Source: Sipunculus nudus (Eukaryota > Annelida > Sipuncula > Golfingiida > Sipunculidae). From it: a DNA stretch of 64,000 bases. The position numbers and the translations under genes are program-made. This document shows positions 20,198 through 59,937 of this stretch, piece by piece (the first letter of the stretch is position 1; each line of letters begins with the position of its first letter). The stretch is from assembly GCA_026874595.1 (NCBI GenBank), contig CM049321.1:7936979-8000978 (forward strand), read 5' to 3'. The notes under the pieces were generated by a model, which was given only the letters and a program-made list of their open reading frames with translations, searched no databases and was not told where the DNA came from.

Positions 20198-21628
20198 AAC
20201 TAGAATACGGGTAGTCGACAAGCGACTACTTGTATCCGCCTAAATCAGAGTGGAACGGGTGAAGTGTTGCATATCAGCATGGATGTCTGCAGCCAAATTG
20301 TGTATGTAGGTTGTGCTACCTACCAAAAAATCCAGAAAGCCGTCCAAGTTGTATACATATGCAAAATTTAAGGCAGATAAGTCAAACCACTATATTGTAT
20401 ATGAGTGATTTTTGCCCTTGGCAGACAAACAGATGGACGCTGTGCAAAAAAGGGTTGCAGGTGGCGCCACCAGTTTAGCATATGATAAAGAGCTTTGTGA
20501 GAACTATACACATGCAAAATTTTGGCCCAATCGGTCAAACGGTTCCCTAGATATGAGCTTGGATGTCTGCAGCGTAAACTTGATTGTAGGTGGCGCCACC
20601 TGTCATAAAATCAGAAAAGCTATCCAGGATGTATAAGCATGCAGAATTTCAGGTGAATTAGTCAAACCACTGCAGAGATATGAGTGATTTTAACCCAAGG
20701 TAGACGAACAGCTGGACACTGTGCAAACGTGGTTGCAGGTGGCGCCACCATTTTTTGTGTATGTTATAAAGCTCTCCAAGGGCTACATTTGTGTAAAAAA
20801 ATTTTCCTGATCGGTCAAACGGTTCCCTAGATATGAGCTTGGATGTCTGCAGCGTAAACGTGAATGTAGGTGGCGCCACCTGTCATAAAATCAGAAAAGC
20901 TATCCAGGATGTATACGCATGCCAAATTTCAGGTGAATTAGTCAAGTCACTGCAGAGATATGAGTGATTTTAACCCAAGGCAGACAAACAGATGGACACT
21001 GTGCAAACATGGTTGCAGGTAGCGGCACCATTTTTGGTGTATGTTATAAAGCTCTCCAAGGGCTACATTTGTGCAAAAGAATTTTCCTGATCGGTCAAAC
21101 GGTTCCCTAGATATGAGCTTGGATGTCTGCAGCGTAAACGTGAATGTAGGTGGCGCCACCTGTCATAAAATCAGAAAAGCTATCCAGGATGTTTGCGCAT
21201 GCCGAATTTCAGGTGAATTAGTCAAGTCACTGCAGAGATATGAGTGATTTTAACCCAAGGCAGACGAACAGATGGACACTGTGCAAACATGGTTGCAGGT
21301 GGCGCCACCATTTTTGGTGTATGTTATAAAGCTCTCGGAGGGCTACATTTGTGCAAAAAAATTTTCCTGATCGGTCAAACGGATCCCGAGATTAGGGGTT
21401 TATGTGTGGAAACAGACGCACAAACGGATGCAGAGCCCAGAGGAAAGGTCAGAGGTCAAAACAAAATCGGGGCGCAGCAGTTCACATGTGACCCGAACAT
21501 TATCCCGGGTTTCGGAAAATTCTGCCCAGCGGTTACGGAGGAGTTCTCCGGACACCTACGTGGCGGTAGCGGCGGCATCCAGCTGAAAACATAGTATCCG
21601 CAAAACTCTGTTTTGGCGGATACAAATA
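20198..21628 (+). mobile_element. Tandem-core hairpin-ended element T1, copy 1
   Basis: A 1.43 kb non-coding element. The left end has AACTAGA, a 7-bp-stem hairpin GTAGTCGACAAGCGACTAC (20211-20229) and the motif TTGTATCCGCC (20230-20240). The right end is a hairpin, GTATCCGC-AAAACTCT-GTTTTGGCGGATAC, finishing GGCGGATACAA (21615-21625), the inverse of the left motif. The core is a dimeric tandem repeat with GGTGGCGCCACC every 130 and 150 bp alternately. Subterminal inverted repeats, a 3' hairpin and a tandem core fit non-autonomous Helentron-type elements (HINE/DINE-1-like) and bivalve pearl elements; that class is inference. A second full copy is at 26.7 kb. The reading frames inside are by-products of the repeat. 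Confidence 0.82.
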
Positions 21629-23732
21629 TGATTGGTTCCAAATATGAGACATCTGGTGAATGGAGGAAAATGATTGACAACAAGCACCTGTTGATCTAGG
21701 TCATGACCTCCTGAAGTCTCTTGGAAATCAATTCAAGAAGTGTATAATACTCCTCTTCCTTTGAACAGCCTCATTTTGGTTTTCCCCTGATCAATATGTA
21801 TCTCTATATACCACATTACTTCATGCTGTGAAACAAATAACCTCATCTTAGTGAGTAAATGACATGCAGTTAATGGCTATAAGGTGAAGACCTTTTTACC
21901 TCAGCCTGGATTCAGCAACTAAATTTGGTAAAAATTGGAATAATTTTGAAAATGTTAATGTTAGTTATCTGCAAAGGATTCCAGCATTTTATCAAAATGA
22001 ACTTCCTCTGATCACATTAGAAAATTCCATGATGATTCTTTAGAGAATTTGTAAAATTTTGCTGGAAAAAAAAAACTTAGTTTATCATTCCAAAAATTAA
22101 TTCAGCATAATGAATTTGACCTGAAGCCGTTTTTCATATTTTAACATTTTAATATCAAACGATTTTGTGTGTTTTCCGAAAAACTGGAACTAGCTTGACC
22201 TCTGGGAGCATTCACATCTAGAATACATTTTCCCGCTGGCAGAGACTGGCCTCATTTGAGACGTGCTGTTAATTTTGGCCAGAATTAACCGAGTGCCAAA
22301 TTGGAAATCTATCGTACAATTACCTCGCAGACCTGCAAGGTGTAAATAATTACTCTCTGGTAATACTGAACACAGGGTGTCTCAGACAGTAATGCCTGCA
22401 TGAGATGTTGCTCTGCTAAAGGAGCCTATTCTGTTATCTGACTTGTATTAACTACAGATAATCCCTTGACCCTTTCATAAAACTGTACCAGAAATGCTGA
22501 TCCAATCACACACAGGTGGATTGTTTATAACATGTTGGGGGGCACCAAAATAATCCAACCACATTCCACAATAGCATCTGACAGCAAGGCAGATGAACCA
22601 GTGTTTTGAAAAAGAGTGTTTTGCAACTGGTGACCTTTCAATTTCTGCACATATGCAACAAACTTACATTTGTTTCTGTAGTCAACACTGCTGTGTTTAC
22701 TAACGATCTGTAAAAAAAACAAGCCAATACATTCATAACAGAGAGGTTATAAAAATTAAATCAACCAGAATTACCTTCAGTTCAGTAAAATGTAAGCAGA
22801 AAAGATAGAAATCACATAAATTCTACAGCAAATTTGAGTGAATAGCTGGCTTTAAACAAATCCACAGGGTCTCACCGTTTTTTTATCTTATTTAAATTTC
22901 AAGGTCTCATCGAGGGCAAAAGTAACTGATACAGATCTCTGGAAACAAATAAAAGCATTTTAACTTGAATTTATTAAAACTTTGAATTTTTTTTTATGTT
23001 ACCTGACCAACTGCATCAAATTGAGATTTTCATGGATGTCTGCTGTATGGTGTTTAAGTGCTGACACCTCCTTTATTTGATATACTTAATATCATGTGTT
23101 TTTCATTAAAAAGTATATTTTATATTGTTTATGTTTTCTTGTAATACATTGTCTATTTTTGTATATTATTGTATATATATGTACGTGTTTCTACAACAAC
23201 AAAAATCAAAGTTAACTTGTCCCTCTTGATCTACAAAAGCCAATATTCAAGGTCTTTTCAAAATTAGCTCCAAGGCCTTGAAAATACATACAAAATATTC
23301 AAGTGTGGGAAACCCTGAACATTCCACAAATATGTTGCAAATTCCTGCATGTCCCCGGATATCCTTGGAGAGATTAAAAAAAATTCTAGGAATTTCTTGG
23401 AATTCCTGGAGGTGCGTGTACCTGTCACTGGTATGCACACCCAGATCCCGTCAAATGGACCAATACACAAGTGGTTCCACCTGTTGTGTTACAAAGTAAT
23501 CTCTGGGGTCGGAAATAAATTGACGGACATGGTAGTGAATACAAGATGTGAGTTTTCCAGTGATACTTGGGCTGCAAGAATGCATTAATTACCTCCTGAA
23601 AAGATTGGTATGACAGAAGATACATGATATGTATGAATGATACTGAACTCATATTGTGCTATACAAAACAATAAATGTTTTATGGTAAATTATGGTATAA
23701 TGAAAATTAATGATAAGCCAGTGTTCCTTCTT

Positions 23733-24126
23733 AATTAAAAAAAAAAAATTTGGTGGAGGCAACTGCCTCCATTTTTTAATGCTTGCTTAACTAAGTGCTC
23801 TGTACATCTAAAGAATTCCCTTCTGGTTTTGGAGTGTGACAGGGACTTACACCCAATTTAAACCTTGTTGTTATCCCGGTGTATCGATCCAGTGGGTCCT
23901 GGGTGTGTCTTCCCCATCCCCGAATCATAACACTGAAGAAATACCTAAAGGCGCACTTGTTTGTCAGTGAATCACAACTGTAAGGAACAGTCTGCCCATC
24001 AAGTCTGCAGAGCGCTTACTCTGGGTGGGGGCCAGCCATGAAAAATATCACGGCCTTGGCTGAGATTCGAACTCACAATCTCCCAGCTTTTAGCCTTGTG
24101 CTCTACCCCTGAACCATAGAAGCCAG
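23733..24126 (-). mobile_element. tRNA-headed SINE (family S1) with 9-bp target duplication
   Basis: Read on the minus strand it starts CTGGCTTCTATGG and carries an A-box-like GGTTCAGGGGTAGAGCAC and a B box GAGTTCGAATCTC. It then has a conserved body (GACAAACAAGTGCGCCTTT) and a tail ending GGCAGTTGCCTCCACCAAA with an A/T run. TTCCTTCTT flanks it on both sides (23724-23732 and 24127-24135), a clear target-site duplication. Other S1 copies in the window are at 42.3 and 56.7 kb, with a truncated one at 36.25 kb. Confidence 0.85.
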
Positions 24127-24544
24127 TTCCTTCTTTCACTGATAATGGAAAAATGGCAAATTTATAACGTATCTGAATTAACCCCATTCACTGGTATAAT
24201 CCTGCTCAGATCAGCCAATCAGATGCTGTTCTGACCAATAGGGTTTTAGCTAAGCTGTAATGTGTGGTCCTGAGAAACACACTGTCTGTCTGCCTGCTTA
24301 TCATGATTAAGGCAGCTGGCCTATCATCAATGTATCAAAACAGTGACTTCCAGGGCTGTACGCTGATACATCAACGTACAAAGTCAAACAAAAAGACAGT
24401 AAAGGAAAAGGATGGGTTTATAGTCTCACTTTACACTAGCCTTGCCTTCCTGGACTAAACGGACTGTTCTTGAAGCTGTTCTAGTACATACCCTATTAAC
24501 ACATGCCTTCACAGATGCAATATCTTGGGTAATCCATTCTACAT

Positions 24545-24735
24545 TTTACCTGCTGTCCATGCATGACCAGTACCCATTCACTCCTGGGTGGAGAGAGCTC
24601 ACCCTTGAGGTAAAGGCTTCGGCCAGGGGTCTTAGCGAGGAAGGCGGTCTGAACTGGATTTGAACCCATAACCTTGCCAATTCTGCTTCTTAGTTAAAAC
24701 CCAGCCTCTTAACTCCTACAAGCTAGCTATTACCT
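24545..24735 (-). mobile_element. Second tRNA-related SINE family (S2) fragment
   Basis: On the minus strand GTTATGGGTTCAAATCCAG is a good B box. Upstream, TTGTAGGAGTTAAGAGGCTG sits where an A box should be. The downstream body (CTCTCTCCACCCAGGAGTGA) is unlike family S1 apart from a short CCACCCAG. It is not a functional tRNA gene: no cloverleaf closes. Confidence 0.6.
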
Positions 24736-25738
24736 ACCCATCAAGCACTGCTGTAGTACTAATAGTGAAGAAAATGACTAAAAAGGAAGCCACCAACAGG
24801 TGGCACTGACAGGCTAATGTGGTATGTATTACTGTAGCACCATGATTTCTATTTATGAAAGAATATACAGCTATGCTGGGATGGTATTAAACTATATGGT
24901 CTCATATGTTAAAATACCTATAATTTTACGATATCCTACATATAATAAAAGCTGGGGATCACCTGTGAGTAGGAAGTATTGATAAACTAATGAATGGTCG
25001 GAGATTCTAGTGAGAGCTTGATCCTGTGGTAAATGAGATTATATTCTGTGCATCAAACTTTTTTATTTATTATATTTATTATAAAGTTATTTATTCAGGG
25101 CATACAAAATCCATGAGGGGTCGCTAATGTGGATAGTATGTCTCATATTAATTCTGTAATTATCACCAAACAGGTGCCTGTAATGGACAGGAGTGAATGA
25201 TATTTATAAAGGCTCGCTGTAGGTGGGTAAATTGGCTCAGCGGGCTGGACAAATTGGTCGCGTTTGTATTTGGCAGATCACCATTGTCCAATGTCACAAT
25301 CAGCTGTGACAGCCAGCCCCTGGCTTTGTCATCTCCAATGCTGTGCTCCAATACACAGCTCTACAACAGCCACCTGGACCTGGACATAGACTGGTACCAT
25401 CTCTCTATAAAGCCATGTTGGTCAGATAATGCAAATATTAACATTTACTGCTTTAACTACCTTTCCATGTTCATTGTACACCATAATCTTTCCACAAACA
25501 CCTAATCCATGCATGACGTACGTATTCTACCAGAACAGTCTAAAGTAATCAATGATGCAGTCAAACTGGCTGATCCAGTGCTGCCACTCTGGATTTAAAT
25601 GTAAAAAGTATATAATCTTAAAAGAAAAAGAATAAAGTGTCTGAAAATAAAAAGTATGATTAAAGTAAAAATCAATGCTAAATAGTGCAATTTTTGTACA
25701 AATTTACAGCATGTGATACCTCTAAACACACTTCAGGT

Positions 25739-25742
<4 letters not shown>

Positions 25743-25790
<48 letters not shown>
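25743..25790. repeat. (AT)n microsatellite
   Basis: Perfect dinucleotide run of about 24 units, likely length-polymorphic. Confidence 0.97.
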
Positions 25791-25792
<2 letters not shown>

Positions 25793-26168
25793 TCCAATGT
25801 TCCATATATCCAACGATTTTGTAAAACATTAATTGCAAGATCACAGAAAACAACAACACCTAATAAAATGACAGTAAATATTGACAGAGGATGTCTACAG
25901 TCAGTTGGTCCAGGTTAACAACAACCTATAATCACTATCTGAAAATGATGCTTTCGTAATTTTTTTTTTTTTGGGGGGGGGGAAGGGAATGCCTCAGAAG
26001 TTTCCTGTAAAAGAAATATAGAAAAGTATTTATCCTTAAAAAACTATGAATAAAGTATGAAAAGACTTCTTGCCTGAAAAGTGTTATTTTTAGAAAAAAG
26101 GTATAGAGTGATAGCTCTGCTAATATGATACTAAAAATGAGACCATGCCATCAGAAACTGTGACCATA

Positions 26169-26439
26169 CAGGGCTCGACATTAATGGTTAACCACTTGCC
26201 TGGGGCAAGTAAAAGTTCCAGAAAATAGTGGAAGGGGATCTAGAAGTGTCTTCCTACTTGCCCCACTGTGGGTCCAACATACACCTTTACCCAAGTAAAG
26301 GCTTGAAAAAGGATCTTTGTGTTCTTGGATACAAGCAATAATATTTGTAGGGCAAGTAAAAATTCATGAAGGGCAAGTGAAAGCTAGATGTTACTTGCCC
26401 AGTCAGGCAAGTACTTTCAAAAGTTAATGTCGAGCCCTG
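26169..26439. mobile_element. hAT-type MITE with 5-bp target duplication
   Basis: A 271-bp element with perfect 16-bp terminal inverted repeats, CAGGGCTCGACATTAA and TTAATGTCGAGCCCTG. It is flanked by CCATA on both sides (26164-26168 and 26440-26444). CAGGG...CCCTG termini are typical of hAT elements, and a 5-bp duplication fits the hAT5-type group rather than the classical 8-bp one. The inside is non-coding but contains several copies of GGCAAGTA and its complement. Confidence 0.88.
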
Positions 26440-26674
26440 CCATATGTCTTTTGATACCAGAATCTAAGCATCTGAGACCAAACACAAGACCAAGGAATCC
26501 AAACAGGTCTGATTATCACAACAGGACATTGTGCCAGTTATACTGCAAGTTTGACAGATTTTTTCTTGTTCAGACTGAAGCACTTTAATTGAGGCCAGGG
26601 TTCTAGAAACCATAGTTTTGCTCAATTTAAATTTAGTTGCTGCCTAGGAGAAATGCATGCTGCCATCATTTATT

Positions 26675-28131
26675 AACTAGAAAGCGGGTAGTCGACAAGC
26701 GACTACGTGTATCCTCCTAAATCAGAGTGGAACGGGTAAAGTGAGGCATGGATTGAGTGGCAAGGGGAAATAGAGTGAAGTGTTGCATATTAGCATGGAT
26801 GTCTGCAGCCAAATGGTGTATGTAGGTTGCGCCACCTACCACAAAATCCAGAAAGCCATCCAAGTTGTATACATATGCAAAATTTGATGCAGATAAGTCA
26901 AACCACTATATGTTTATGAGTGATTTTAGCCTGTGGCAGACAAACAGATGGACGCTGTGCAAAAATGGTTGAAGGTGGCGCCACCAGTTATGCGTATGAT
27001 AAAGAGCTATGTGAGAACTATACACATGCAAAACTTTGGCCCAATCGGTCAAATGGTTCCCAAGATATGAGCTTGGATGTCTGCTGCATAAACTAGAATG
27101 CAGGTGGCGCCACCTGTCATAAAATCAAGAGAGCTGTCGGGGATGTATAAATCTGCAAAATTTTAGGCAGATATGTCAAACCACTGCCGAGATATGAGTG
27201 ATTTTATCCCATGGCAGACAAACAGACAGGAGCTGTGCAAAAATGGCTGCAGGTGGCGCCACCAGTTTTGCGTATGATAAAGAGCTATGTGAGATCTATA
27301 CACATGCAAAATTTTGGCCCAATCGGTCAAACGGTTCCCGAGATATGAGCTTGGATGTCTGCAGCGTAAACGTGAATGTAGGTGGCGCCACCTGTCATAA
27401 AATCAGAAAAGCTATCCAGGATGTATACGCATGCCGAATTTCAGGTGAATTAGTCAAATCACTGCCGAGATATGTGATTTTATCCCATGGCAAACAAACA
27501 GACGGGAGCTGTGCAAAAATGGTTGCAGGTGGCGCCACCAGTTTTGCGTATGATAAAGAGCTATGTGAGATCTGTACACATGCAACATTTTGGCCCAATC
27601 GGTCAAACGGTTCCCGAGATATGAGCTTGGATGTCTGCTGCATAAACTAGAATGCAGGTGACGCCACCTGTCATAAAATCAGAAAAGCTATCCAGGATGT
27701 ATACGCAGGCCGAATTTCAGGTGAATTAGTCAAATCACTGCAGAGATATGAGTGATTTTAACACAAGGCAGACGAACAGATGGACACTGTGCAAACATGG
27801 TTGCAGGTGGCGCCACCATTTCTTGAGTATGTTATAAAGCTCTCCAAGGGCTACATTTGTGCAAAAAAATTTTCCTGATCCGTCAAACAGTTCCCGAGAT
27901 ATGTGGGTTTATGTGTGGAAACAGACGCACAAACGGACGCAGAGCACAGAGGAAAGGTCAGAGGTCAAAACAAAATCGGGGCGCAGCAGTTCACATGTGA
28001 CCCGAACATAATCCCGGGTTTCGTAAAATTCCACCCAGCGGTTACGGAGGAGTTCTCCGGACACCTATGCGGCGGCGGCAGGCAGCTGAAAACAAAGTAT
28101 CCGCAAAACTCTGTTTTGGCGGATACAAATA
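26675..28131 (+). mobile_element. Tandem-core hairpin-ended element T1, copy 2
   Basis: Full-length sister of the copy at 20.2 kb, same orientation, with the same terminal hairpins (GTAGTCGACAAGCGACTAC at 26688-26706; right hairpin ending at about 28130). Its left motif is GTGTATCCTCC, with two changes. The core holds eight palindrome sites, six intact as GGTGGCGCCACC and two changed (TTGCGCCACC near 26825 and GTGACGCCACC near 27658). A 150-codon open frame at 27198-27650 arises because the 279-bp dimer happens to be stop-free and a multiple of three. Both copies share the flanks AACTAGAA and ATACAAATAT, which marks the element boundaries. Confidence 0.82.
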
Positions 28132-30359: not shown

Positions 30360-32486
30360 TTATGGCCTGGATAATCATCTGTTCCTAAGCTTCAACACTA
30401 AGCAAGCTTGAAGAAGCATATGACATTCTTGGCAATTCTAACTGCGATATTCAAAATTGAATGGACCATACTGAAATTCCTCAAAGTCTGCACTTACAAT
30501 GTAATGCAATAGTCCACGGAAGAACATTAGTGCTCTGTAGATAGCAACACAATAACACGGGTAAATTAATCTTTGATCTATATTTTAATTCAGAACTGGT
30601 GTGGAGTGTAAATCCATAAATCATACGGGATATCGCTAATGCTGTTTCTCAAGATGGAGGAGAAAAAACGACTGGCTGGTGCAGCAGGAAGCCCGTTTGT
30701 GCAGGCAAGGGGGATTCAACAAAACACTCATTAGCATGGACGAAACAGACAACCCCCATTTTGTTAGCTTATATACGCAAAGGAATCTGATTAAATAACA
30801 TAATCATTGAATAAATATGAGGTTACATTGTTTGGTATCAGAATGTACGACCAATTCAAGGAAACTTGCAAATCTGGACTTTACCAATGACTGAACACTG
30901 CATAATGAATATGATAAATGATAAGTATCAGGATGACTAGCAATTAAAAACACTATGCCCAGTACCCACACTGCTGTGATGAATGTATGGGCTTGTCAGG
31001 CTGGAAGCTAGGGGGCACCAGTTGTTTGCCTGCAGTTTATAAAACAGGCAGTCATTTACTGCCTCCACACATGAGAGTATCGATATTAGCAATATCCCAT
31101 ATTTAGAACTCCACTGTGGAGCTGAATTCTATGATATAATATTAAATTTTACCTAGGCTACCCAATCTTAACTTTTAAGTGTACTAAGTTTTCATTGACT
31201 CATTCATAACAATGTTATGCAGGATAATACTACTAAATTCAATACACTCAAACTGCTCTGACACAGGTAAACGTTTTGAAAAGATCATACATATTTTTCA
31301 TGGGATCATAATGATTAGTCTAACTAGCATAGATGAACAAACTTAATGTTAGGTGTCTCACACAAGTTACCTTTTCTCTGCCTGTACAGGAATATCAGCC
31401 TCTTGTACGCTGGAATCAAGCAGCTCACTATGTATATCATTTAATAAAACTCTTTGCGATTGCATTATTTTAAAACTTTGGTATTTATATTAACCATACC
31501 TCTGCATGAAAGGTATTATTAATGTTTTCCCCTTGGTTTGTTGGTTTGCCAGTAATCAACTTTCATGAACTCTGTTACACATTACCACATTGATGACAAT
31601 GATGTCAAAAATGATACTTTAAATACAACAATTTAACCAAAATTTGTTATTCCAAACAAAAATATTGTCTCCTGAGTAATTAAGATAACAGCTCTTCACT
31701 GTATCATAAATCTTACTTGAAAAAAAAATTAAATAATATATGTACATTAAAAAAAAAACTTTGAAATATATTTACTGTACTAACAAAGTGTATATTAATA
31801 TTTATAAAAATGTACATATATATTTAAATTTAAATACAACTTGGAATTATGTGAACAGTTCATGAAACAGACTGATGTGTCAATCAGCTGTAATTATGTC
31901 AGTTTAGTTGAAAAGAAAGATCAGAAATCACTCTGTAAATTCAGACAAGATTGGCAGCTCAATGCTGCCATCTAGTGACTGGAGCGTAAACTAAAGTTAG
32001 ACCCCTCCTCCCCCCCCCCCCCCCCCCCGACTTGATTCTGTAAATCAGAAAATAAAATAATATATTTAGCAGACAGATTTAATGATTAAGAATGCAGAAT
32101 TGTGTTATACTATATATTATGTACCAACACATATTATACGTAAAAGAATACATGTGTATGCACCAAATGTAATATTCTGTATATCTTATGGCTACAGACC
32201 CATATTTAAAGTAATTCCAATCCTTGCATACATACATACACATTCTTATAACACTTTTAGAATGGCCTCCAAAATCTGAAAATTGGTGTGAATGTTGTTC
32301 CAACCCCATAATCACACCTTCCATTTAGTGTGATTTTACTGAAAACAAACTTCAAGGTTTTTTATCCACAGTGATTTTTTATGGTTTCCGGTAATCAAAG
32401 TGGCTAAGATTTAACCACAAACCTTACCTTCAAGGCCTTCAGATGGCTACCTAATAAACACTAGAATATCAGCAGAAGCTGACAAA

Positions 32487-33496
32487 AGCCCTCAGCCAAA
32501 AGAACAGTGTTTAGAGGTGGTAACAGTAACAAGTACTAAATATCTGTTCTCACATGGATGTATATCTGTACATGTCTCAGTTATAAATTTAAAATGGAGA
32601 GGTATGTACCATGATTCATAATAATCCACCAAATGCTTCCTGAAAAATAAGCTTCTAAGTTTTATTCTATTATAAGCTCTGTGACCTTGAAAAGTAGGTC
32701 AAGGTCACCCATCTTCGAACATGAACGAGATTGTTGTCGATATACATCTTCACCAAAGAAATAAAATTCCTATTGAGAATACTTTTAGAGATATCCCGCT
32801 CACAAGGCCAAAGTTGAAAAATCCAAGAAAAATTCAATAAAAAATCAGAAATTGCAGGTGGCGCCCCCAAACTTGTGCAGCAGTTAATGACCATCAGTAC
32901 CTATGATCATAGTAAGTATTGTGAAAATCCATCCAATGGTTCCTGAGAAATAAGCTTCTAAATGTTTTTTCTATAATCAGCTCTAAAACGTAGAAAAATA
33001 GGTCAAGGTCACCCATCTTCGAACTTGACCGAGATTTTGTCAATATACATCTTCACCGAAAAAATAAAATTCTTACGGTGAATCCTTTTCGAGATATCCC
33101 GCTCACAAGCCCAAAGTTGAAAAATCGGATAAAAATTCATTAAAAATCAAAAAAATTGTAGGTGGCGCCACCAAACTTGTATAGCAGGTACAGACTATCA
33201 GTCCCAATAATCATAGTAAGTTTTGTGAAAATCCACCAAATGGTTACTGAGTAATAAGCATCTAAGTGTTTTTCTATAATCAGCTCTAAAATGTAGAAAA
33301 ATAGGTCAAGGTCACCCATCTTCGAACTTGACCGAGATTTTGTCGAAATACATCTTTACCGAGGAAATAAAATTCTGACAGTGAATCCTTTTCAAGATAT
33401 CCCGCTCACAAGGTAAAAGTTAACGGACGCCGGACGGACGGACGGACAGACAGCTTGGGTGACGACAATAGCCCATCAGCCTAAGGGCTGAGGGCT
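32487..33496 (+). mobile_element. Tandem-core hairpin-ended element T2 (pearl-like)
   Basis: A 1.0 kb element. Left motif AGCCCTCAGCC (32487-32497). The right end is a hairpin, TAGCCCATCAGCC-TAA-GGGCTGAGGGCTA, ending in the inverse motif GGCTGAGGGCT (33486-33496). The core has about 2.6 units of roughly 300 bp, each with GGTCAAGGTCACCCATCTTC, a GAGATATCCCGCTCACAAG block and GGTGGCGCCACC (intact near 33165; altered near 32860). A GGACGGACGGACGGAC microsatellite (33424-33450) lies just before the hairpin. Tandem core, microsatellite and hairpin together match the published description of bivalve pearl elements; assignment is by architecture, not search. Confidence 0.8.
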
Positions 33497-35523
33497 AAAA
33501 ACCAGTCCAACACACACGCACACATACATGGAGGAACTGAAACATTGGTCACAGAATGTTAGGTCTACACTTAATGAAATGACTGAGAAAAATAAGATCT
33601 AAGACTGCTCTTAAAAACATACACACTACACCATCATCATCAATATCATCATCTCAGTGATAAACAAGGTGATGTTCTCAATCTGTTATGATACACGTGA
33701 ATCAAATTCTCTATCTATAAATGTATAGTTGAGCAAAACCGCACACATGCAAAATACTGAATCGTTGAATTTAATCTAACCTGGTGCACTATGGGTAAAT
33801 TTTAGCTTGAAAAACAATACGTGCACACCACTTGATGAGAAAATCATAATCCGACAGCGAAAATTGTTAGCCGCGGGTGCATCTGTGCTAAAGAATTCTG
33901 ATCGTACTTGCGCTACGTCATTCCAGAATTACTCGAGCATGTGGATTAGTAATCGCTTGGCTACACTAGAAGCGTTAGATTTCTATACATAACATTACCT
34001 CTTTTCTTGCTCAATGGGGTGATGACTGAAATTGATTCATAGAGAGATTTACAGAAAATGCAGAAAGCACAAGACAACACTAAAGCATAACAGAGCATAT
34101 TTTAAATATGCCCAACTCTGATGGGACTTCACCCTTTATGACTGTATAAAACTGGCTTAAGGCCTTTGAGAGCTGATAGATCAAATATATAAATATATAT
34201 GTACGATTTTAATGCAATATGAAAGAGTCGAAATAAGAGACAAGGGGCTCATGGACAGGCATTTGAGTAAAACACAGGGTGCATCATGGGAATACAGGAT
34301 CCAGAGTCATGTAGGTAAAAAATTCATTATTATTCATATTTTCAGTCCTCTGTGATTCTGTTTTTTTCTCTGTAATTAAGGACAGGGTTTGCAAATCCTG
34401 ATAAAATACACATAACTTGTGATATAATGAGAAGGTGTATTGTAGAACATCACTTATCTAATATTGTTAAGGCACCATGGAGAAACATTGCCATGATACA
34501 ATGACGGGCAGGGACTGGGGGGGGGGGGGGATGGTATGGCACACTAGATGAAACTCTGCTGAGGTAATATTTGATGAGCGCCATCTGTAATCAACTGAAT
34601 GTACTATAATCTTCACTCTGAGACAGTTTTGGAGGCAATGTTTCATCCCTGTATAAACTATTCAAATTAATATTTAATAATATAACATTATTATACATGC
34701 AGATTTCTATGAAATATATAAATGCAGTTAATAAGAGATGTGTATATCACAACTTAAACAGAGATGAAATACCTAATTATTCTCACAAGCACTGACTAGA
34801 CCAGCACTGGCTGATTTAGATAATCCACACTAGATGTCTCTCTTGTATGCATCACTACCTGGCTGACTGACCATCTTTCATATGAACTGTTGCTGGTTCA
34901 GTTCACTCCTGGAACATTTAGTTTCTTAACTGCCAGGGCTTGGAGTACAAAAGCTTATAGTATTAGGACTCAAAAAATTTGTTGGGTCTAAAATTGTGAT
35001 TTTGACATGAAACACCATTCATGGGGTTAATCATTTTTGGAATAATCATTCCTGAGTAGCTGCTGTTGTTGTTTACAGACTTCGCTGATGACATTAGTCT
35101 GATAAATTTAAACAAGACAAGCAGTAGAAAATAGTCTTTCAGCATAACAACAAGTGAGAAAGAGAGATTGTATTGATCACTGTGTATACCAATGTACACA
35201 CATGGTGAGGTGATATTTTGCAGCAGGACACCCAGATGATGTAACTGGTGAATTGATGTATCTAGTATGATGGATTCCATTCACCACACAGAGCATTAAG
35301 ACACTGAACACCTTGTTCTGTGATGAACACAGATACAGCTTTAGGCTAGGGACACTGAACTTTACTACTAGGATATGAATGATTTACACATTTGTACTAG
35401 GGTTATGTTTAAACACACAGGTACAACTTCAGGCTTCAAACACAGGCCAAACTTGAGCTTACAACCAGCTAAAGAATGATGCATATATTTGTAACGAAAA
35501 ATTCACAAAACTAGCGGACTTAC

Positions 35524-46178: not shown

Positions 46179-46290
46179 AATAATACCCTGACAGGCTTCA
46201 CGTTTTTATAGCATTTTTTCCCCGGCAATACAGATTAAAACTAAATAAAAGTCATCCTTTGGTTTCCTAGTATATCAATTTATATATTGG

Positions 46291-46430: not shown

Positions 46431-47689
46431 CTGATTTATCCCATATGTCACGTGTGTCACATTTTTCTTTGTTATGCATCGGATTCGCTACATCTCAGAA
46501 TGTCAAACTTAAATTTTTGTTTGCTCGGGCTCCAGGAACGTGAAGTTACTATTTTTATGTAAATAAACCAGTTCTTTGCCTTATTTGAAAAGTTGCATGC
46601 AACCTGACTAGCATGGTCACTTTGCATGACCCTGTGATGCAAGCAGATTTAAATGAATAGTAAGAACAACGGAAAATACGCTGCATGTGGGATAAGAACA
46701 CTGAACTGACTGAATTCGTGATAATTTTTATCACAATTGTTATTTTAAGGTATATTTCTTTTATTAATATGATACATCTTGATGGATAAGAGAAATTGTT
46801 GTGACAAGATCAAATGCCTCTCAGGTAAATAATTCAAATTGTCATTCAAATTGTGCTTTATTTTTTTTTAAAATTCTTGATAAACAGATACTTTTGATTT
46901 ATGAACTACTGATAAAGAAACTGTTGTAACTGACATATTAAAGTGATCAGCAAATCAAACACAACGTAAGCGTGGCAGATCTTTATCGTTCTGGTCCAGC
47001 ATAAGGACTTGTCTGCAAGGTCATTTATCACACATACAGCTGACAAAGACTGGAGAAAGACCAATGTATACCCAAAACACCAGGGCCAGGAGTGCTGGCT
47101 CTCAAGGGGTCACCACACTTGGCTGAAACCCATAATGAGATAGGAAGGAGAAATTATACTTGAGGAGAATACTTTGTCAACTGATCAACACAACGATTGA
47201 GTGCCCTAAACTAATCCTAACAAAAGACAGAATAGCAAGGATAACTTACACAAATTAACAAATGACGATTGATTTTTTCCAAATAACTATGGAAACTCAA
47301 ATGCAGAATCATTTGTTTTTAGGTGACATATTACAAATAAGGCATTTCAAAACTAATATAATAACAGATGGAAACATTTTCTTGAATTCAAGCCTGAATT
47401 TACAATGTGACCTTGTGTACACAAAATGGTTATAAACCAATGAAAATTAAAAAAAGGTTTTGCTACAAATGAAACCTGCTACCAATTTACCAAATTATAA
47501 AACATAATCCATCAAACAACATGTTCTGTATGAATTCAAAATAAACTAGTGTGGGCTGAGTGATGCTTTGGAAAAATATAATTAAAGACCTGATTACATG
47601 CAGAGACAAGATGAAACTGACCCAAAACAGTATTTAAACACTGAAGCAAGATGGAACAACTGGTAAGAAAAGTTTGACTTATAAGGCAT

Positions 47690-48520
47690 TCACATATTTT
47701 TTAGAAATAGAAGTCCTGAGACATTGACCTCTGACCTCAGGACCCCAAAATCATTAGGGTTCTTGCTTTTTTGGTTGGTCATATATATATATTAAGTTTG
47801 AAATCTATAGATGAATCCAAACTGGAGTGATGAGAGGTTTTGGAACTCAATGCATGTACAGCTGACTCCTGTGACATTGACCTTGAAGCTTGGGACCCAA
47901 ATATGGAAAGGAATATTTGCCCATTGGCTGGTGAGCTGTATGTGTAATATAGGACCTCTGGTATGAAAGGTTTTGCTTAAAATGCATCCACAATATTTTT
48001 AAAGATGTGGGGACTGTGACCTTGACCTCTGACCTCATGTACCTACATGAGGAAAGATGTTTGTTTTAGTGTTTGGCCATATAAAAGTCCAGTTTGAAAT
48101 CCATATATGAATCCAAATTATATGGAATTATCATCATGAAACATTGAATATGTGAACAGATGGCTCCTGTGACCTTGACCTTTGAACTTTTGACCCCAAG
48201 ATTTATGGAGATGTTCCCCTGTTGGCAGGTGTCATATATGTGCAAGATGGACAGACTGGCATGGAAAGTTTGGCTAAAAATGCATCCATGATGTTTTTAA
48301 AAAATGTGAGTCCTGACATCTTGACCTTTGACCCCATGACCCCAAAATCTATAGGGTTCTTGCTTTAGTGGTGGGCCATTTATATATTAAGTTTGAAATC
48401 CATATGTGAATTGAAACTGGAGTTATCTTCTGGAAATGAATTTGTGGACGGACAGACTGTAAAGGACAGACAGGGAGATTAGTATAGGGCACGTGCTTCT
48501 ATTGAAGCGAGGCCCTAATG
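47690..48520 (+). repeat. Tandem array with TGACC(T)-rich units (element T3, 5' end lost)
   Basis: About 2.3 units of roughly 300-310 bp. Shared blocks are AAGTTTGAAATCCATATATG (or near variants), CCTGTGACCTTGACCT, GACCCCAAAATC-TATAGGGTTCT and AAAATGCATCCA. It ends with GACGGACAGAC-AGGACAGACAGG and a 3' hairpin GGGCACGTGCTTC-TATT-GAAGCGAGGCCC (48487-48515), the same right-end design as elements T1 and T2. The matching 5' motif was not found, so the left end appears truncated. Related units occur inside the element at 57.9-59.9 kb. Confidence 0.75.
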
Positions 48521-50098: not shown

Positions 50099-50135
50099 AT
50101 TTATATATATATATAAATATATATATACATTAATT
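50099..50135. repeat. TA-rich low-complexity tract
   Basis: TATATTTATATATATATATA and following TA repeats, imperfect. Confidence 0.9.
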
Positions 50136-50384
50136 ATATTTAAATTAGCCTAATAAAGACAAACAAATGTAACTTTGGTCAAGCTGCTTGTACTCTGAAT
50201 AAGGATGACATGACAACTTTTAAAGTCATAGTTAATCATCAGGTAATCATACATTGTAAACATCATTGAATATAACATTAGCCAAGATATGTTTTATTAC
50301 AATATGTTGGTCTGCAGCCACATAAAAACCAAATTTATAATGACCCCACAACTTGCTCTCAGATACAAAGTAAAGGAAGTCTTC

Positions 50385-50890
50385 ATGACTGAGACCAAAG
50401 GATTTGTGACTGAGACCAAAGGATTTGTGACTGAGACCAAAGGATTTGTGACTGAGACCAAAGGATTTGTGACTGCATGAGAACAAGGGGTCTGAGATCC
50501 ATGAATGAGACCAAGGGATTCATTACTGACACCAAAGGCATCAATGACTGAGACACAAGGATTCGTGACTGCATTAGAACAAGGTATCCGAGATCTCAAG
50601 ACCAAAGGATTCATGACCAAGACCAAGGGATCCACGACTGAGACCAAGGGATCCACGACTGAGACCAAGGGATCCATGACTGAGACCAAGGGATTCATGA
50701 TTGAGACCAAAGGATCAAGACTGAGACCAAGGGATCCATGACTGAGATCAGGGGATCCAGACTGAGACTAAAGGATTCTTGACTGCATGAGAACATGGGA
50801 TCCGAGATCTCAAGACCAAAACATATATGACTGAGACCCAGGGATTCATGAATAAGACCAAGGGATTCATACATGAGATCTCAAGACCAT
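50385..50890. repeat. 21-bp minisatellite, open on both strands
   Basis: GACTGAGACCAAAGGATTTGT and variants (GACCAAGGGATCC-type) repeat from 50385. The first four units are nearly perfect and later ones diverge, with two longer units containing GCATGAGAACAAGG. Because 21 is divisible by three and the unit lacks stops, long frames appear on both strands (TETKGFV repeats on plus; SHKSFGL or LVSVTNP on minus). There is no other sign of coding. Confidence 0.93.
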
Positions 50891-53630: not shown

Positions 53631-55775
53631 GGGCATCACAGATGCTTATCCCTAGTTTCCTGAAAGTCCTTTATAGTATACTGTTGTTCAACATTGCAAT
53701 TACCAAAGTCAGCAATACACAGAAGGATCTAAAGTGCACAGAAATTAAGAAAATGAGTTCTGTATTCTTCTATTTTATAGAAACCATGCTGCAGAGGCAG
53801 CCAGACTCAACAGGAAATTAAATATTCCATATAAGGACATGAATCTGTATTCTAGTATTATACATGAGAGCTAAAAACACCTGCTACATGCAGGCCTGAG
53901 GAAGATTTTTAATGTGATGTCCATCAAAATAACAAAATATTCTTAAGAGTTTTTGCAATTCTCATTCTTTTTTTATTCTTCTCTCATTTCATTTCTGCTT
54001 CATAATTTTTCATACAAGTGTCAAGAATGCTGCTGAGGATGGAATTAAATGGTATATTGTTAATCAAACACCCTTCTTGTAATCTTAATTGATGGCTTTT
54101 TTATGCATAATTAGGCATGTTTAATTCACATCAGCTGGTTGTTAAGCTGGAATTAAAACAAAACTTACTTAATTTGTAACTTGTTATTTAATTTTCTTAG
54201 ATTTAAGTGCATTAGTTTGGCTAATTCCGGCGGAGTTGCTATTTTTAATGTTAATTTGATGGTCATTTGTATATCTGTTTTTTTTGTGTCCAAGTTGCAA
54301 CATAGAGCATGTTACCATACTTAGAATACTCTAACCCTTTCATTTCTCAAGGTTAAAAGTTAATGAGCAAAATATAGAATTTTTAAACCAGTCATATTTC
54401 ATTCTTATTTAGTAGGTTGAGACGTGAACTTCTTTTGAGTCATGCACTGACAAGCAGAATGGGAAGTGGATTACGGATAAAAGGAAAATGACACGCCATT
54501 CACTTCTCTCAGAGCTATACAGATAGCCAGATTTGTGCATCCCTGTATTCCTGGAAATTGAAATAAGAAAGTCAGAAAATATATAAGATTTACTTGTATC
54601 TCATAAGAAATAAATCTAGAGTCCCTTCATGTCCTTTTCCTGTTTTAACAATACACATAACTTCAACTTTCTGTCAATGATCTTTGATGCTTCTATTGGT
54701 AAAAAAATGATAAAATCCTTCAAAATTAAGCCCTCTCTTTATAGTTACTGACAAAATCATGGGTTTTCCCACTGTCATCTCAGTAAAGGATCCTTTTTGT
54801 GTCTTTATCCTGCATTTTGTTGTGCTATTATCTAGGGCAAGAAGGATGTCTATGAATAAATTCAATCAGGTTAAAAAATGCAAAAACGTAAGGTTTATTC
54901 AAATTCGGCTAAGGACCTTGCTTCAAAGTTATTAAAAACAGGAAAAGCAAAACTCAGGCATATTCCCTGAAAAGTAAAAGTAGCAGTACTCAATTTTGCC
55001 AATCTGAAATAAGAATGTCTACTGACAAGTCAGAAATAAATGACATCATCCAAAATTGTGCTGTAAATCTCAATTGAATTGGGAAGTAAATTGAATAATA
55101 ATTTTTACAACGATTAACACACTTCTCACAGGTATCAATCTTGTGACTTAGAAAGGTGGAACAGACCCCAACTGTTAAATATCAGTCTGCTTTGGACAAA
55201 ATGATGCCATTAAAATCTCAGCCTCCTAGTAAATCTTCCTGTCTATATATTGATTAGCAGTAATTAATAATGATATCCCAAATTTTCTATATATGACCTG
55301 AAACATCCTAGTGTTAGGGTGTACACAAAAAGACAGCCCCCATGAGCAGTTTTGAGAAACTGGGAGAAATATAAAACCTGCCAGGTTTTGAATAGGGCAA
55401 ATGTAGGTATACTACAAGGAGATCATCCGGGTGAGAATATCAATGGACAGTTTTGTGGCAAAGACTTTTATTCAGCCAAGTTTACGGTAGAATAACACTT
55501 TATAGGACCATCACAAAATTAGAAATATGATTACTGACCATACATTGAGCCCATCTTCCATAAGTTATAACTGAAAAACAAGTCATACGAGGACCAGGAA
55601 AGTAAGATGATCACCACACAGATGGGATTTTTACCTTAGTTTACACATTCACATGTATTTTTTGTGATAATTTCTCTGTCACAGACTATAATGCTGATCA
55701 AGATTACTAACTGTGCACAGGCCATCAAAAATGGTTATAGGATGTTATATATGTTAAATTTATGGATAGCCATTA

Positions 55776-56107
55776 GGCCAAAAAAATAAAAGGTATGGTT
55801 CTCAGGCACCGCCTGCATCAATTTTAAACCCCCACATCAAAAATTTTGATTTTGATTTTCAATAGAAACCAATTTTGAGCTTCAGCCGCTCAGACATTTC
55901 TTTCAAGAAGATAAAATCATACAATTTCCTTTATTATGTAGTGCTCTTACTTGTTTAGCAAAATAAATCTGTTTTTATCATGCTTTTCCCTAAAAAATTG
56001 AAATTTTTATCGAAGCAGACCAAAAAACAAAAATAAAAAAAACACTCGCCTGCACTGATTTATGATAAAAAGTGCCTGAGAACCATACCATTTTTTTTAT
56101 TTTGGCC
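55776..56107 (+). mobile_element. MITE family H, copy 2 (Harbinger-like, TTA duplication)
   Basis: A 332-bp non-coding element. Left terminus GGCCAAAAAAATAAAAGG then TATGGTTCTCAGGCAC; right terminus GTGCCTGAGAACCATACC then ATTTTTTTTATTTTGGCC, a nearly perfect inverted pair of about 34 bp. It is flanked by TTA on both sides (55773-55775 and 56108-56110). A TTA/TAA 3-bp duplication with GG-starting inverted repeats fits the PIF/Harbinger superfamily. The copy at 19.7 kb is the same family. Confidence 0.88.
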
Positions 56108-56742
56108 TTACAGATCAGTTTTAAGGGTGACCAATGTCACAATTCAAAGTAGGTCCTATCAGTCCAAGAATGCCTGAGTCATGTTTTCACAGCTGAAGTG
56201 AAAGATCTATGGTTAAATTTAGCAACAGGGGACAGAATGAAAATGAAAGTAACTTGCCTAACAAATCCATACTGATGCTTCTAACAGAAATAGCATCTGG
56301 ATTGTTCTCATAATATAAAAAACATAGCTAGCTCAGATGGCTTAATAAAAGCTAGAGAACATCAGTCAATATCATAATGTAACCTTCATCCTCATTCACA
56401 GATCAATGCCATCTGCTGGCCAAATGTTGTTTCACCTCTTATGCACTGGTCTTCATAACATTCCACCTACCAGTCCATTTCATTTAACCACTGCCTGCTC
56501 CAGAAGCATTGCTGGCCAGTAGTCTGCCACCAGGGCAGCATTGCTTTCTGGCTACAAGCAGACCATTCAATCTTTGCCAACAACTCCAGAATGCTTCACA
56601 TTCATTGGTCAAAATACTCATAACTAATAATAAAATGATCCTGGCTCTGTGCCAATGCCTGGTGGTAGTCTACAACAAATGCTTTTAAAAACCCAGTGGT
56701 TGAATAAAATGGATAAGTAAAAATAATGCATATATTGAACTG

Positions 56743-57115
56743 GCTTCCATGGTCTAGGGACAGAGCACGTCAGGGCTCAAAGCCGGAAGATTGTGAGTTC
56801 CATTCCTGGAAGAGGCAGTGAGATTTTTCACAGGGCGGCTCCACCCAGGGTGAGTGCTCTGCAGGCTTTATGGCAAGACTGTTTCACTCACAAACAAGTG
56901 CGCTTGTCTGGGGTACCTCTGTGTTATGACCCAGCAACAGGGATGATCCCCACACACCAAGAACCCACAAGATAGGACTATACGTACACTGAGTCTGGCT
57001 GACACCAGAATTATCATGTGTTAGCCCCTGTCATGTAGTCTGAATCTGGAATTTAATTCTGCAGATCTATAACAGAGTACTCTGTTAAGCAAGCATTAAA
57101 ATATGGAGAATGTTA
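56743..57115 (+). mobile_element. SINE S1, plus-strand copy
   Basis: CTGGCTTCCATGGTCTAGGG, a B-box-like GTGAGTTCCATTCCTGG, CACAAACAAGTGCGC and a tail containing GTTAAGCAAGCATTAAAATA match family S1. It lies in PDE1 intron 1, opposite in orientation to the other three copies. Confidence 0.8.
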
Positions 57116-57911
57116 CTCTGCAAAAAAAATAATCCATACTGAGATCAATATGTAAGAAGAGTGATTTTGTGTTTAACCATTGGCTTAATTACTGCTGTTC
57201 TGTCACTCAAAAAAGCACCGACAGGCAGGCAATTAACAACCAAATGAGAGAGTGTGCAAATACAATTAACAGCTGCAAGAACGACAGGAACAACTGTCAC
57301 AACTTAATGTGAACTTCTGTGTGACTGCTGTGAAATCAGGTTAAATGAAATGAACTGCCCTGGTAATGGATTTTAAGTTGAACTAAAAAATTCTTCAGGT
57401 TGCGTGAAGGTTCAACAGTAATAAATAATTAATACTCCAAATCTCACAGCTGGCCAATTGGGTATGCTAGCTGACAAAGAGGCCGGGCTTACCAGAATCA
57501 ACACCAATATATGAACACTTAAGGTGCGTTAAACATGGTCAAGAACAAAAGGCTCTCTACAGTCTTGATACAGTGGTTATATGCTGCATTTCCATGTAAT
57601 ATTTGTTTACAAAAGGGCCTTTTCTGGGTTTTGTCACCAAAGCCAAGGCCAAGAATGTTCTGGTGATTAATAATGCATTGTAATTTTGTGAAAAATAAAA
57701 CATTTTAAGTATTATTGTATGTATTATAGTAGACACTTTTTTCTAATATAGGAGTACAAGTCCTGTCTGCTTGAAGACTGAAGGCAGAATACTAAGTCCC
57801 ACGTACAGTTCAGCCACTACTGTAAAGCTCTGCATGAAGCTTTTAAAAAAAATACATATAAAGCATATGTCTTCCTTATAATATCCCTGGGAGTGTAAAA
57901 CAGTCACCATG

Positions 57912-57912
<1 letters not shown>

Positions 57913-57949
<37 letters not shown>
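57913..57949. repeat. (AAT)n microsatellite
   Basis: Perfect ATA/AAT trinucleotide run of about 12 units, abutting the left end of the tandem-core element at 57948. The element may have inserted into it. Confidence 0.95.
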
Positions 57950-57950
<1 letters not shown>

Positions 57951-59937
57951 TAGATATATCTTGGCACACAGGTGCCATAGTATCCTCAGACAATTAATCC
58001 CCCCTTTAAGAATAGGCCCCCCATCTTCAGCAGAAAATACTGACACTTAGCAAGCGACTATGGTTTCTTCCATATAACAACTTGAGAAACAATATTTTTC
58101 ACCAAATATGGGGGCCAATACGTTGAATCTCTCTTGAGAAAAGAGCATTTATTTATTTTACAGAAACAGGAAGGTAGGTGGCACCACCTGTCTGGTTTTC
58201 AAGAAAATTTTCCAAGATGGATAGACATGCTAAATTTAAGACCAATACCTTCAACCACTCCAGAGATATGAGCAATTTTTACCGAAAGCACATATACAGA
58301 TGGACACCATGGCAAAACGATATCAGATGGCACCATCAGTCTTGAGTACAAGATGTAGGAGTCCAATCTATGGATATGCAGAATTCCAGGCCAATAATGC
58401 AAATCTCTCCTCATGCAGCAAAGAGCATTAATTTATTCAATGGAAATGGGAAGGAAGGTGGCGCCACCTGTCTGGATTACCAGAAATCTTTCCAAGATGG
58501 ATGGACATGCCAAATTTCAGACCAATACCTTGAACCAATCCGGAGATATGAGGAATTTTCACCAAAAGCACATGTACAGATGGACACCACGCTAAAACAA
58601 TTGCTGATGGAGCCACACGTCTTGAGTACAAAATGTAGGAGTCCAAGATCTATGGATATGCATATTTTCAGGCCAATAGGGTTAATCACTCCTCAGAAAA
58701 GGGTATTAATTATTCTACAAAAAAAGGGAAGGTAGGTGGCGCCACCTGTATGGTTTATGAGAAAACTTTCCAGATGAATGGACATATGTAAGTCAAGTTT
58801 GAAACCCATATATCATCCCAAGCTGGAGTAATCAGGAAATGAATTTATGGACAGATGGTTCCTGTGACCTTCACCTTTGACCTTGTGACCTAAAAATGGA
58901 CAGGGGTCTTCCTCTATTGGCTGGTGAACTTTATGTGCAAGATAAAAGGTCTGAGATGAAAAGTTTCGCTGAAAACGCATCAACAATCTTTTTAAAGATG
59001 TGTCCTGTGACCTTGACCTTGTGACCCAAAAATCAAATGGGATCTTGTTTTTTCAAAGGGACATATTTAAGTCAAGTTTGAAAACCATACATCAATCCAA
59101 GCTGGAATTATCATACCATGACCTAATGGCACCTGTAGCCTTGACCTTTGACCTTGTGACCCCAAAAATTTATATGGATCATCCACTATTGGCAAGTGAG
59201 CTATATGTTCAATATGGAAGATCTCGGATGAAAAGTTTGGCTTAAAATGCATCCACAGTTTCTTTAAAGATATGAGTCCAGTGACCTTGACCTTTGACCA
59301 CATGACCCTAGAACCTATAGGGTTCTTACTTTAGTGGTGGGCCATACATAAGTCACGTCTGAAATCCATTTGGCTATGAACACTAGAGATATCATAAGAG
59401 GTGTGTGATTTTCATCAAACATGGAAATATTAAAGGTCAAGGCCACTCTCATGGTAAAGCAAGGTCATGACCCAAATTTAAAACAGACCTCATCCCATAA
59501 CCCATCTCTCTACATGTTCATAATATGAAAGAAATATGTCCAATAGTTTTTGGTTTATAATGCTCACAGTACTGTTGTGGCAATTATGGGGGTATTTAAA
59601 GGCATAAAAACAAGTAAAAGGATAATAGGTGGTGCCACCAGTTTCCAGCATATTCCGTCCATTTTTGGACCAGTCCATGCAAGCTTTCTTGAGATAATCA
59701 AGAATTTATTACTTTCAGCAAAAATGGAACTAATCAAGGTCAAGGTCACTCTCATAGCAAAGGTCATTACCCCATTTTAAATAGGCTTCGTCCTCTTACC
59801 TATATCTATACAAATGTAAAGTTTGAAAAAGATCAGTGAAATATTTTTTAGTTATCCTGCGCACAAGATTTTTCCGTGGCGGCAACGGGACCATTGTGAA
59901 ACCCTAGTATCCCAACTTTGTCTTGGGATACAATAAT
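57948..59937 (+). mobile_element. Composite tandem-core hairpin-ended element T4
   Basis: Left end AACTAGA, a small hairpin TGGCACACAGGTGCCA and AGTATCC (57990s). Right end hairpin GTATCCCAA-CTTTGTC-TTGGGATAC (59907-59931), then AATAAT. The core has two kinds of unit: GGTGGCGCCACC monomers (sites near 58174, 58326, 58456, 58733 and 59629, some altered) related to T1, and between about 58.79 and 59.37 kb, TGACCTTTGACC units related to T3. It also shares AACTAGA with T1. It looks like a hybrid of two satellite lineages inside one set of ends. Confidence 0.75.

Follow-up and report, generated by a model that had tools for sequence, protein, structure and literature searches.

A 64,000-nucleotide stretch of the genome of Sipunculus nudus (assembly GCA_026874595.1, contig CM049321.1, positions 7,936,979 to 8,000,978; hereafter the window) contains five tandem-core elements, T1a, T1b, T2, T3 and T4, all of which lie on the minus strand. 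Here, we conclude that T1-T4 are very probably four families of HINEs (Helentron-associated interspersed elements), which are non-autonomous rolling-circle transposons; these have tandem cores and a Helitron-like CTAG at the 3' terminus. They are new families of an already published design, that of Cg_HINE, of DINE-1/HINE and of the oyster Helitron-Helentron intermediates. An initial annotation, made from the letters of the window, had proposed that these different elements share one end-design. That design is real, in that genomic copies share their ends in unrelated flanks; its direction, however, had been reversed and the true 3' end had been missed. Now that it is settled in which direction the four repeat families run and where they truly end, their copies can be correctly searched for, dated and tested.

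Copies were collected from a genome of 1.43 Gb in 153 contigs; the window itself holds two copies of T1 and one each of T2, T3 and T4. The T1a query, whose first base lay 20 bases internal to the element's real end, gave 5,919 first-look candidates, of which 40 were scored. Twenty-seven of the 39 other scored copies span the query from position 1 to 1406-1413 with 93-98% identity, and the true end was read in 20 copies fetched with their flanks. Both ends are common to these 20 and to the two window copies (22/22), while the flanks are otherwise unrelated. The flanks of copies L002 and L016 are identical, and thus at most 21 T1 copies are independent. The scored set of T2 comprises 40 copies, window copy included; the 39 others all span 12-21 to 1062-1065 of the query with 95-98% identity, and both ends were read base by base in the window copy and in 10 fetched copies (11/11). 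Four T4 copies extend nearly end to end (5-10 to 1995-1998, 82-85% identity), and a fifth, without the last ~60 bases, reaches 1935. The ends of T4, window copy included, are readable in 11/11 copies at the 5' side and in 10/11 at the 3' side (L059 gave no match). The 3' end of T1, taken as 41 bases plus the host TT, has 8,065 genomic matches with up to 3 mismatches, compared with none for the reversed control. The shared ends in unrelated flanks across the genome show that T1, T2 and T4 are mobile elements. From the close similarity of their copies, T1 and T2 appear to have spread recently; the T4 copies are older. A scan of the whole window for a hairpin followed by CT(A/G)(A/G) gave many matches outside the elements, so this pattern alone identifies nothing; the elements are identified by their genomic copies.

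Read on the minus strand, the 5' end is composed of TT, a subterminal inverted repeat (subTIR), a loop and a complementary inverted repeat (IR). The 3' end is composed of the inverted subTIR, a separate palindrome, 4-8 nt, and CTAG followed by T. All motifs quoted in the initial annotation were located in the window: TTGTATCCGCC at 20230, with its complement at 21615 and 28118; AGCCCTCAGCC at 32487, with its complement at 33486, and AGCCCATCAGCC at 33470; and GTATCCCAA at 59907, with its complement at 59923. On this strand, however, what had been described as a 3' hairpin that re-uses the 5' motif is the 5' end, consisting of the 5' subTIR and its IR. The elements also do not begin at the motif that was said to open them. 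Beyond it there is a second palindrome and a CTAG beside host T, 30 bases out in T1a, 26 in T2 and 29 in T4, and this true 3' terminus, palindrome included, was overlooked because it lies outside that motif. The T1 motif said to open both copies is exact in T1a and degenerate (GTGTATCCTCC) in T1b. AGTATCC, given as the opening of T4, is present but too short alone; other copies have a 14-base repeat, GTATCCCCAGACAA / TTGTCTGGGGATAC or close to it, and TTGTCTGGGGATAC is the 3' subTIR in several of them.

The 5' part of T1 consists of TTGTATCCGCC (subTIR), a loop, GCGGATAC (IR) and the core; its 3' part consists of GGCGGATACAA (subTIR), the palindrome GTAGTCG-CTTGT-CGACTAC, CCGTATT, CTAG and the host TT. 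In T2, TTAGCCCTCAGCC, CTTA, GGCTGATGGGCT and a GTCC-type microsatellite precede the core, and the 3' part is made of GGCTGAGGGCT, TTTG, the palindrome TCAGC-TTCT-GCTGA, TATT, CTAG and host T. T4 begins with TTGTATCCCAAGACAA and the IR TTGGGATAC, which are followed by the core, and it ends with the subTIR, the palindrome TGGCAC-CTGT-GTGCCA, AGATATAT, CTAG and TT. The subTIR, present at both ends, is 11 bp long in T1 and T2, 14 bp in T4 (in other genomic copies) and, judged by eye, ~10 bp with one mismatch in T3. An IR complementary to the 5' subTIR lies shortly after it in all four families. A palindrome follows the 3' subTIR in T1, T2 and T4 in the window, and in T3 in genomic copies. The terminal CTAG is found in 21/22 copies of T1 (CTAC in L017), 11/11 of T2 and 8/10 readable copies of T4.

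The hairpins were scored as single-stranded DNA against 200 shuffles. The 5' hairpin of T1a has an energy of -10.7 kcal/mol and a z score of -6.95. None of the 200 shuffles was as good for the 5' hairpins of T1, T2 and T4, and 2/200 were for that of T3. The 3' palindromes are weaker than the 5' hairpins, with z scores (and shuffles as good, each out of 200) of -3.08 (0) for T4, -2.34 (5) for T1a, -1.80 (10) for T2 and -1.58 (17) for T1b.

T3 had been described as a design that keeps one hairpin only. The window copy has the 5' hairpin and stops exactly at a CTAG, followed by host TTTATT; this is the only CTAG within the 974 bases of the copy examined. Ten of the 40 scored genomic copies extend past this stop (L095 by 52 nt). 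Their extensions contain stretches similar to GCAGGGCCCT and to TGAC-CT-GTCA, and the terminus reads CTAGTT in 7/10, a one-base variant (CAAGTT, CTTGTT) in 2/10 and is not recognisable in 1/10. Because a 3' end of the T1/T2/T4 kind can be recognised in 9/10 of the extending copies, T3 shares the design, and the window copy has no 3' end because it was truncated at an internal CTAG. The chance that a random break would fall at the sole CTAG is, we infer, about 1 in 970. We read this single copy as the product of a rolling-circle event that terminated too early, at a cryptic CTAG. In that case, CTAG itself would belong to the stop signal, and T3 would be a naturally occurring test of the requirements of a rolling-circle 3' end.

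In the copies of T1, T2 and T4, the subTIR is directly preceded by TWWTT. There is a T at -5 in 22/22, 11/11 and 10/11 copies, respectively (43/44 in total), and TT at -2/-1 in 44/44; the base at -4 is C in a single copy of T4. The right flank begins with TT in 22/22 copies of T1, 10/11 of T2 and 9/10 of T4. In the T2 copy of the window, CTAG is followed by TG. The base before the element's TT is T in 10/11 copies of T2, in agreement with the insertion between two T residues that had been proposed, but it is mostly A in T1 (19/22) and T4 (11/11). Flank repeats that include the TT were found at k=3 in 2/22 copies of T1, 3/11 of T2 and 0/5 of T4, and at k=5 in one copy per set; directly upstream of the TT, repeats at k=3 were found in 1/22, 4/11 and 1/5 copies. 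No flank repeats were found at k=4 or k=6-9 in T1 (22 copies), T2 (11) and T4 (5). A target duplication of more than 2 bp is therefore absent as a consistent feature, and an ambiguous TT remains. One host repeat carries T1 in two of its copies, L010 in the first and L020 in the second; the insertion points differ, and the two T1 copies are oppositely oriented with respect to the repeat. Each thus gives the empty site of the other, which is uninterrupted and has TT once. The two findings that would have spoken against its reading, copy boundaries away from the structures and duplications like those of DDE transposons, were not seen in these copies.

The closest alternative is that T1-T4 derive from canonical Helitrons and not from Helentrons. 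This is a question of label that overlaps with the reading given above, and we consider it rather unlikely. The 3' end is of the canonical CTRR type, in which a palindrome lies ~11 bp from the end; here, it is a CTAG with a palindrome 4-8 nt upstream. Insertion in T1 and T4 is mostly next to an A, as described for the base before TT, and T begins the right flank in all 22 T1 copies. Furthermore, oyster CTAG-end elements that insert between A and T, and that partly carry subTIRs and an IR, are treated as possible Helitron-Helentron intermediates in the parts of that account considered here (PMC7992393). However, the 5' end of canonical Helitrons is TC, whereas TT is found at 44/44 of the 5' ends of T1, T2 and T4. 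The subTIR and the IR also speak against canonical Helitrons, as does the T that precedes TT in 10/11 copies of T2. Taken together, the data are compatible with either label.

A very improbable explanation is that these are miniature inverted-repeat transposable elements (MITEs), which would have short inverted repeats at their termini (TTGTATCCGCC...GGCGGATACAA) and be mobilised by a DDE transposase that leaves a 2-bp TT duplication. Inverted repeats are present at both ends, TT flanks both sides in 22/22 T1 copies, and the Pearl elements, according to the sections of PMC7492417 consulted, were initially classed as MITEs. However, the repeats are not symmetric; they are terminal at one end and ~30 bases internal at the other, where the palindrome and CTAG follow. 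The TT is also a target preference, the window T2 has TG after its CTAG, and there is a T at -5 in 43/44 copies. A consistent duplication longer than 2 bp, as in DDE transposons, is not seen. Finally, since the cores consist of 278-303 bp units in tandem, they could be taken for ordinary satellite DNA, with chance hairpins at the array edges as ends. This is almost certainly wrong, given that the T1 3' end has 8,065 genomic matches and its reversed control 0, and that the same ends are found in unrelated flanks.

For transposons of the HINE kind, the following mechanism can be proposed. Acting in trans, a Helentron Rep (HUH nickase)-helicase-endonuclease would nick at the 5' end of the element, after which a single strand would be displaced. 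The machinery would recognise the 3' subTIR and palindrome and then terminate at CTAG, and the displaced strand would be inserted within a TWWTT site. The T3 of the window would be an early stop at a cryptic CTAG. The combination of Rep, helicase and endonuclease is described as the signature of Helentrons in the consulted parts of PMC4067079. Predicted open reading frames (ORFs) of this Helentron type exist in the genome. The PF14214 profile has 143 matches, some of which are pieces of one locus. Among six ORFs scanned, Rep and PIF1 domains are found in 6/6, and the endonuclease domain is found with E <= 0.001 in 5/6 and above the Pfam cut-off in 4/6. The assignment to non-autonomous Helentron-type rolling-circle elements made in the initial annotation is upheld by the subTIRs, the IR, the 3' palindrome, CTAG, the T-rich target, the lack of a consistent target duplication other than the ambiguous TT, and these ORFs. 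By eye, Helitron_like_N matches appear clustered at C1:63.9-71.8 Mb, C7:46-50 Mb, C14:41-42 Mb and C8:28-30 Mb.

The ends of T1-T4 were searched for in 24 Rep regions, picked for open frames and spread across the match types; 8 of these are 9 kb long and extend downstream from Rep, and 16 are 5 kb long and lie ~3.5-8.5 kb downstream. Four upstream pieces of 8 kb each were added. As positive controls, the end scan found both ends in 20/20 copies of T1 and 10/10 of T2, the 5' and 3' ends of T4 in 10/10 and 8/10, and those of T3 in 8/10 and 10/10. Several results weigh against the reading preferred here. The ends of T1-T4 were found in 0/24 of the Rep regions, which cover mostly the downstream side at a part of the 143 PF14214 matches. 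The part searched thus holds neither a Rep-helicase ORF flanked by the same ends nor an autonomous element bracketed by them, as the single mobilising machinery of the initial annotation would have it. Exact T1 3' ends outside the T1 context numbered 0 and 0 in two partial tests, which by a base-composition estimate would miss ~79% and ~44% of possible other contexts; 984 in the T1 context served as positive control. Two Helentron families were compared at their 3' ends. Family B, with two copies 98.5% identical over 5.3 kb, has a palindrome and then CTTG followed by TTT, and family A has no clear palindrome; judged from these ends, the two do not clearly share the design. In addition, the second TT may be the element's own or a 2-bp duplication, as sequence alone fits both, the early stop of T3 is known from one copy, and the 3' palindromes of T1a, T1b and T2 are modest by the z scores given above.

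T1-type ends were found in two of the four upstream pieces, L085 and L086, and were rejected as ends of the partner. They belong to a nested older T1 relative of 0.86 and 1.35 kb, respectively (L085 3464-4323 and L086 2490-3844, reverse-complement coordinates), which is ~68-72% identical to T1, has the same flanks in both family-B copies and lies wholly before the main ORF. The T1 5' end with another context is found at 5 places, all of which are older T1 relatives. Their 3' end is seen in 4/5, with lengths of 0.8-1.2 kb, and none of the 5 has similarity to the Helentron proteins tried. The T2 5' end has another context at 1 place. Two tandem arrays were noted beside Helentron genes: a 63-bp array at L085 ~6280-6870 (reverse complement), in the Rep ORF region of family B, apparently coding and also found in L086, and a 179-bp array at L025 7549-9000, downstream of a Helentron Rep ORF.

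The cores of T1, T2 and T4, although dissimilar in other respects, contain a palindromic box, AGGTGGCGCCACC, which was not found in T3 within two mismatches. In the window, the core boxes lie between 20460 and 59639. Genome-wide, the box has 76,139 matches on one strand and 76,127 on the other, compared with 5 and 6 for the reversed control; where a T follows the box, it is counted on both strands. Five further places, picked from the first 100 matches listed, correspond to an element similar to T1, one similar to T2, an end similar to that of T4 and cores of two more types, one with ~336-bp units (L089 and L091) and the other with another array (L090). A GAGATAT-like box is found 73-77 nt after the core box at 30/42 sites and at 63 nt at one, whereas 11 sites have none; as many of these sites are units of the same arrays, they are not independent. 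As background, one-mismatch TGAGATAT is found in 219 of 3,000 random stretches of 65 bases. T1, T2, T4 and the other box-bearing cores look like distant relatives that share two boxes. As a separate observation, T3 (47700-48350) and the second half of T4 (58850-59310) have in common units in which TGACCTTTGACC-like stretches recur; we take these stretches to be similar to nuclear-receptor half-sites.

Conservation of the core box was examined in 20 T1 copies (21 were collected and L016, which has the flanks of L002, was dropped; T1b was left out). Departures from the column consensus are found in 27/1,680 cells of the box compared with 392/26,907 elsewhere, and in 22/1,400 compared with 276/24,733 outside CpG. 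The box has no extra conservation across these copies. This argues against strong post-insertion selection, and if there is selection, it would act during the spread of the lineage. The CpGs of the box change less than others (5/280 and 116/2,174, respectively; Fisher p 0.008, with copies that are not independent). One idea, which we regard as doubtful, is that HINE cores are arrays of sites for a host factor (one similar to CTCF, or a different germline factor), that these sites promote mobility and that the cores have seeded the genome with ~10^5 of them. The sequence AGGTGGCGC resembles what we take to be the CTCF core, and the palindrome makes it readable both ways. The shared box would be a concrete possible reason for the tandem cores of such elements. 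No account of the box GGTGGCGCCACC / AGGTGGCGC was found in the text searched, which included work on CTCF in molluscs, on Helitrons together with CTCF, tandem repeats and HINEs, and on CTCF in a review of spiralian genomics (PMC10658182); sequences shown in figures are outside the reach of such searches.

Positions of all parts are given in Table 1. Two further repeats were noted in the window: an array of 21-bp units (TGACTGAGACCAAGGGATTCA-like) in several sub-blocks at 50382-50878, outside the HINEs, and about four copies of a 105-bp unit at 12937-13367.

Table 1 Positions of the tandem-core elements and of their parts in the window.
Feature	Position	Strand	Basis or remark
T1a, whole element, 5' TTGTATCCGCC ... 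CTAG 3'	20200-21625	-	both ends in 20 fetched copies
T1a, 5' subTIR TTGTATCCGCC	21615-21625	-	
T1a, IR GCGGATAC, pairs with 5' subTIR	21594-21601	-	hairpin test
T1a, 3' subTIR GGCGGATACAA	20230-20240	-	earlier 'opening' motif
T1a, 3' palindrome GTAGTCG-CTTGT-CGACTAC, then CCGTATT CTAG	20211-20229	-	shuffle test; 8,065 genomic ends
T1a, tandem core, 280-bp unit of two boxed parts (~130 + ~150 bp)	20271-21392	.	7 GGTGGCGCCACC boxes, 6 exact
T1b, whole element	26677-28128	-	
T1b, 3' palindrome	26688-26706	-	
T1b, degenerate 3' subTIR	26707-26717	-	
T1b, 5' subTIR	28118-28128	-	
T1b, IR	28097-28104	-	
T1b, tandem core, 278-bp unit	26820-27831	.	8 boxes, 6 exact
T2, whole element	32461-33498	-	40 scored copies including itself; ends of 10 read
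T2, 5' subTIR	33486-33496	-	
T2, IR, then GTCC-type microsatellite and 303-bp core units	33470-33481	-	
T2, 3' subTIR	32487-32497	-	
T2, 3' palindrome	32469-32482	-	
T2, CTAG	32461-32464	-	
T2, tandem core, 303-bp unit	32623-33412	.	boxes at 32857 (one mismatch) and 33161 (exact)
T3, 3'-truncated copy	47546-48518	-	5' subTIR/IR hairpin within 48485-48517; CTAG 47546-47549
T4, whole element	57950-59933	-	
T4, 5' subTIR	59918-59931	-	
T4, IR	59907-59915	-	
T4, 3' subTIR	57980-57993	-	
T4, 3' palindrome	57962-57977	-	
T4, CTAG	57950-57953	-	
T4, tandem core, 280-bp unit	58126-58785	.	boxes at 58177 (one mismatch), 58457 and 58735 (exact)
T4, additional box	59628		one mismatch

The design of T1-T4 was compared with the relevant parts of the published accounts of similar elements. 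Cg_HINE of the Pacific oyster (PMC7492417) was compared by description and not letter by letter. Its left flank has a 5' subTIR, a complementary IR and a microsatellite, which is of the GTCC type in our T2; a short tandem array is in the center, and the right flank has a 3' subTIR and a palindrome. Cg_HINE also resembles T1-T4 in its TT-rich target without duplication, in having multiple families per genome and in the two conserved segments found in otherwise divergent monomers of one group. The autonomous partner is not identified in the consulted parts of the oyster account either, and a CTAG terminus is not mentioned there. The core units differ in length, being 278-303 bp here and mostly 140-180 bp in the oyster.

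The subTIRs of 11-15 bp, the 3' stem loop and the preference for TT are shared with DINE-1/HINE and Helentrons as these are described in PMC4067079. The IR after the 5' subTIR is a feature of DINE-1 (PMC4067079) and of Cg_HINE (PMC7492417); some HINEs are without it. Variable terminal Ts and the presence of Rep/helicase/endonuclease Helentrons are further points in common with Helentrons. In contrast to our elements, for which none is demonstrated, partners of DINE-1/HINE were demonstrated by near-identity (PMC4067079).

With the oyster CTAG-end Helitron-like elements (PMC7992393), T1-T4 have in common the CTAG 3' motif with a palindrome upstream, which is 16-20 bp in the oyster. Insertion is mostly between A and T in the oyster elements, as it is in T1 and T4 but not in T2. 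About a third of the oyster elements carry subTIRs, and a subset has both subTIR and IR. The 5' end is TC in the oyster and TT here. The oyster account gives 751 intact elements, and 8,065 T1 3' ends are found here, which are different kinds of count. Mobile repeats with short tandem core arrays are also known from bivalves, namely Pearl (CvA, CvE), DTC84 and the BIV160/Cg170-related repeats (PMC7492417, PMC5139131). In the parts of these accounts that were compared, DTC84 has a conserved palindrome, and the monomers of BIV160/Cg170 share two conserved motifs, which by description only are like the pair AGGTGGCGCCACC and GAGATAT in the cores of our elements.

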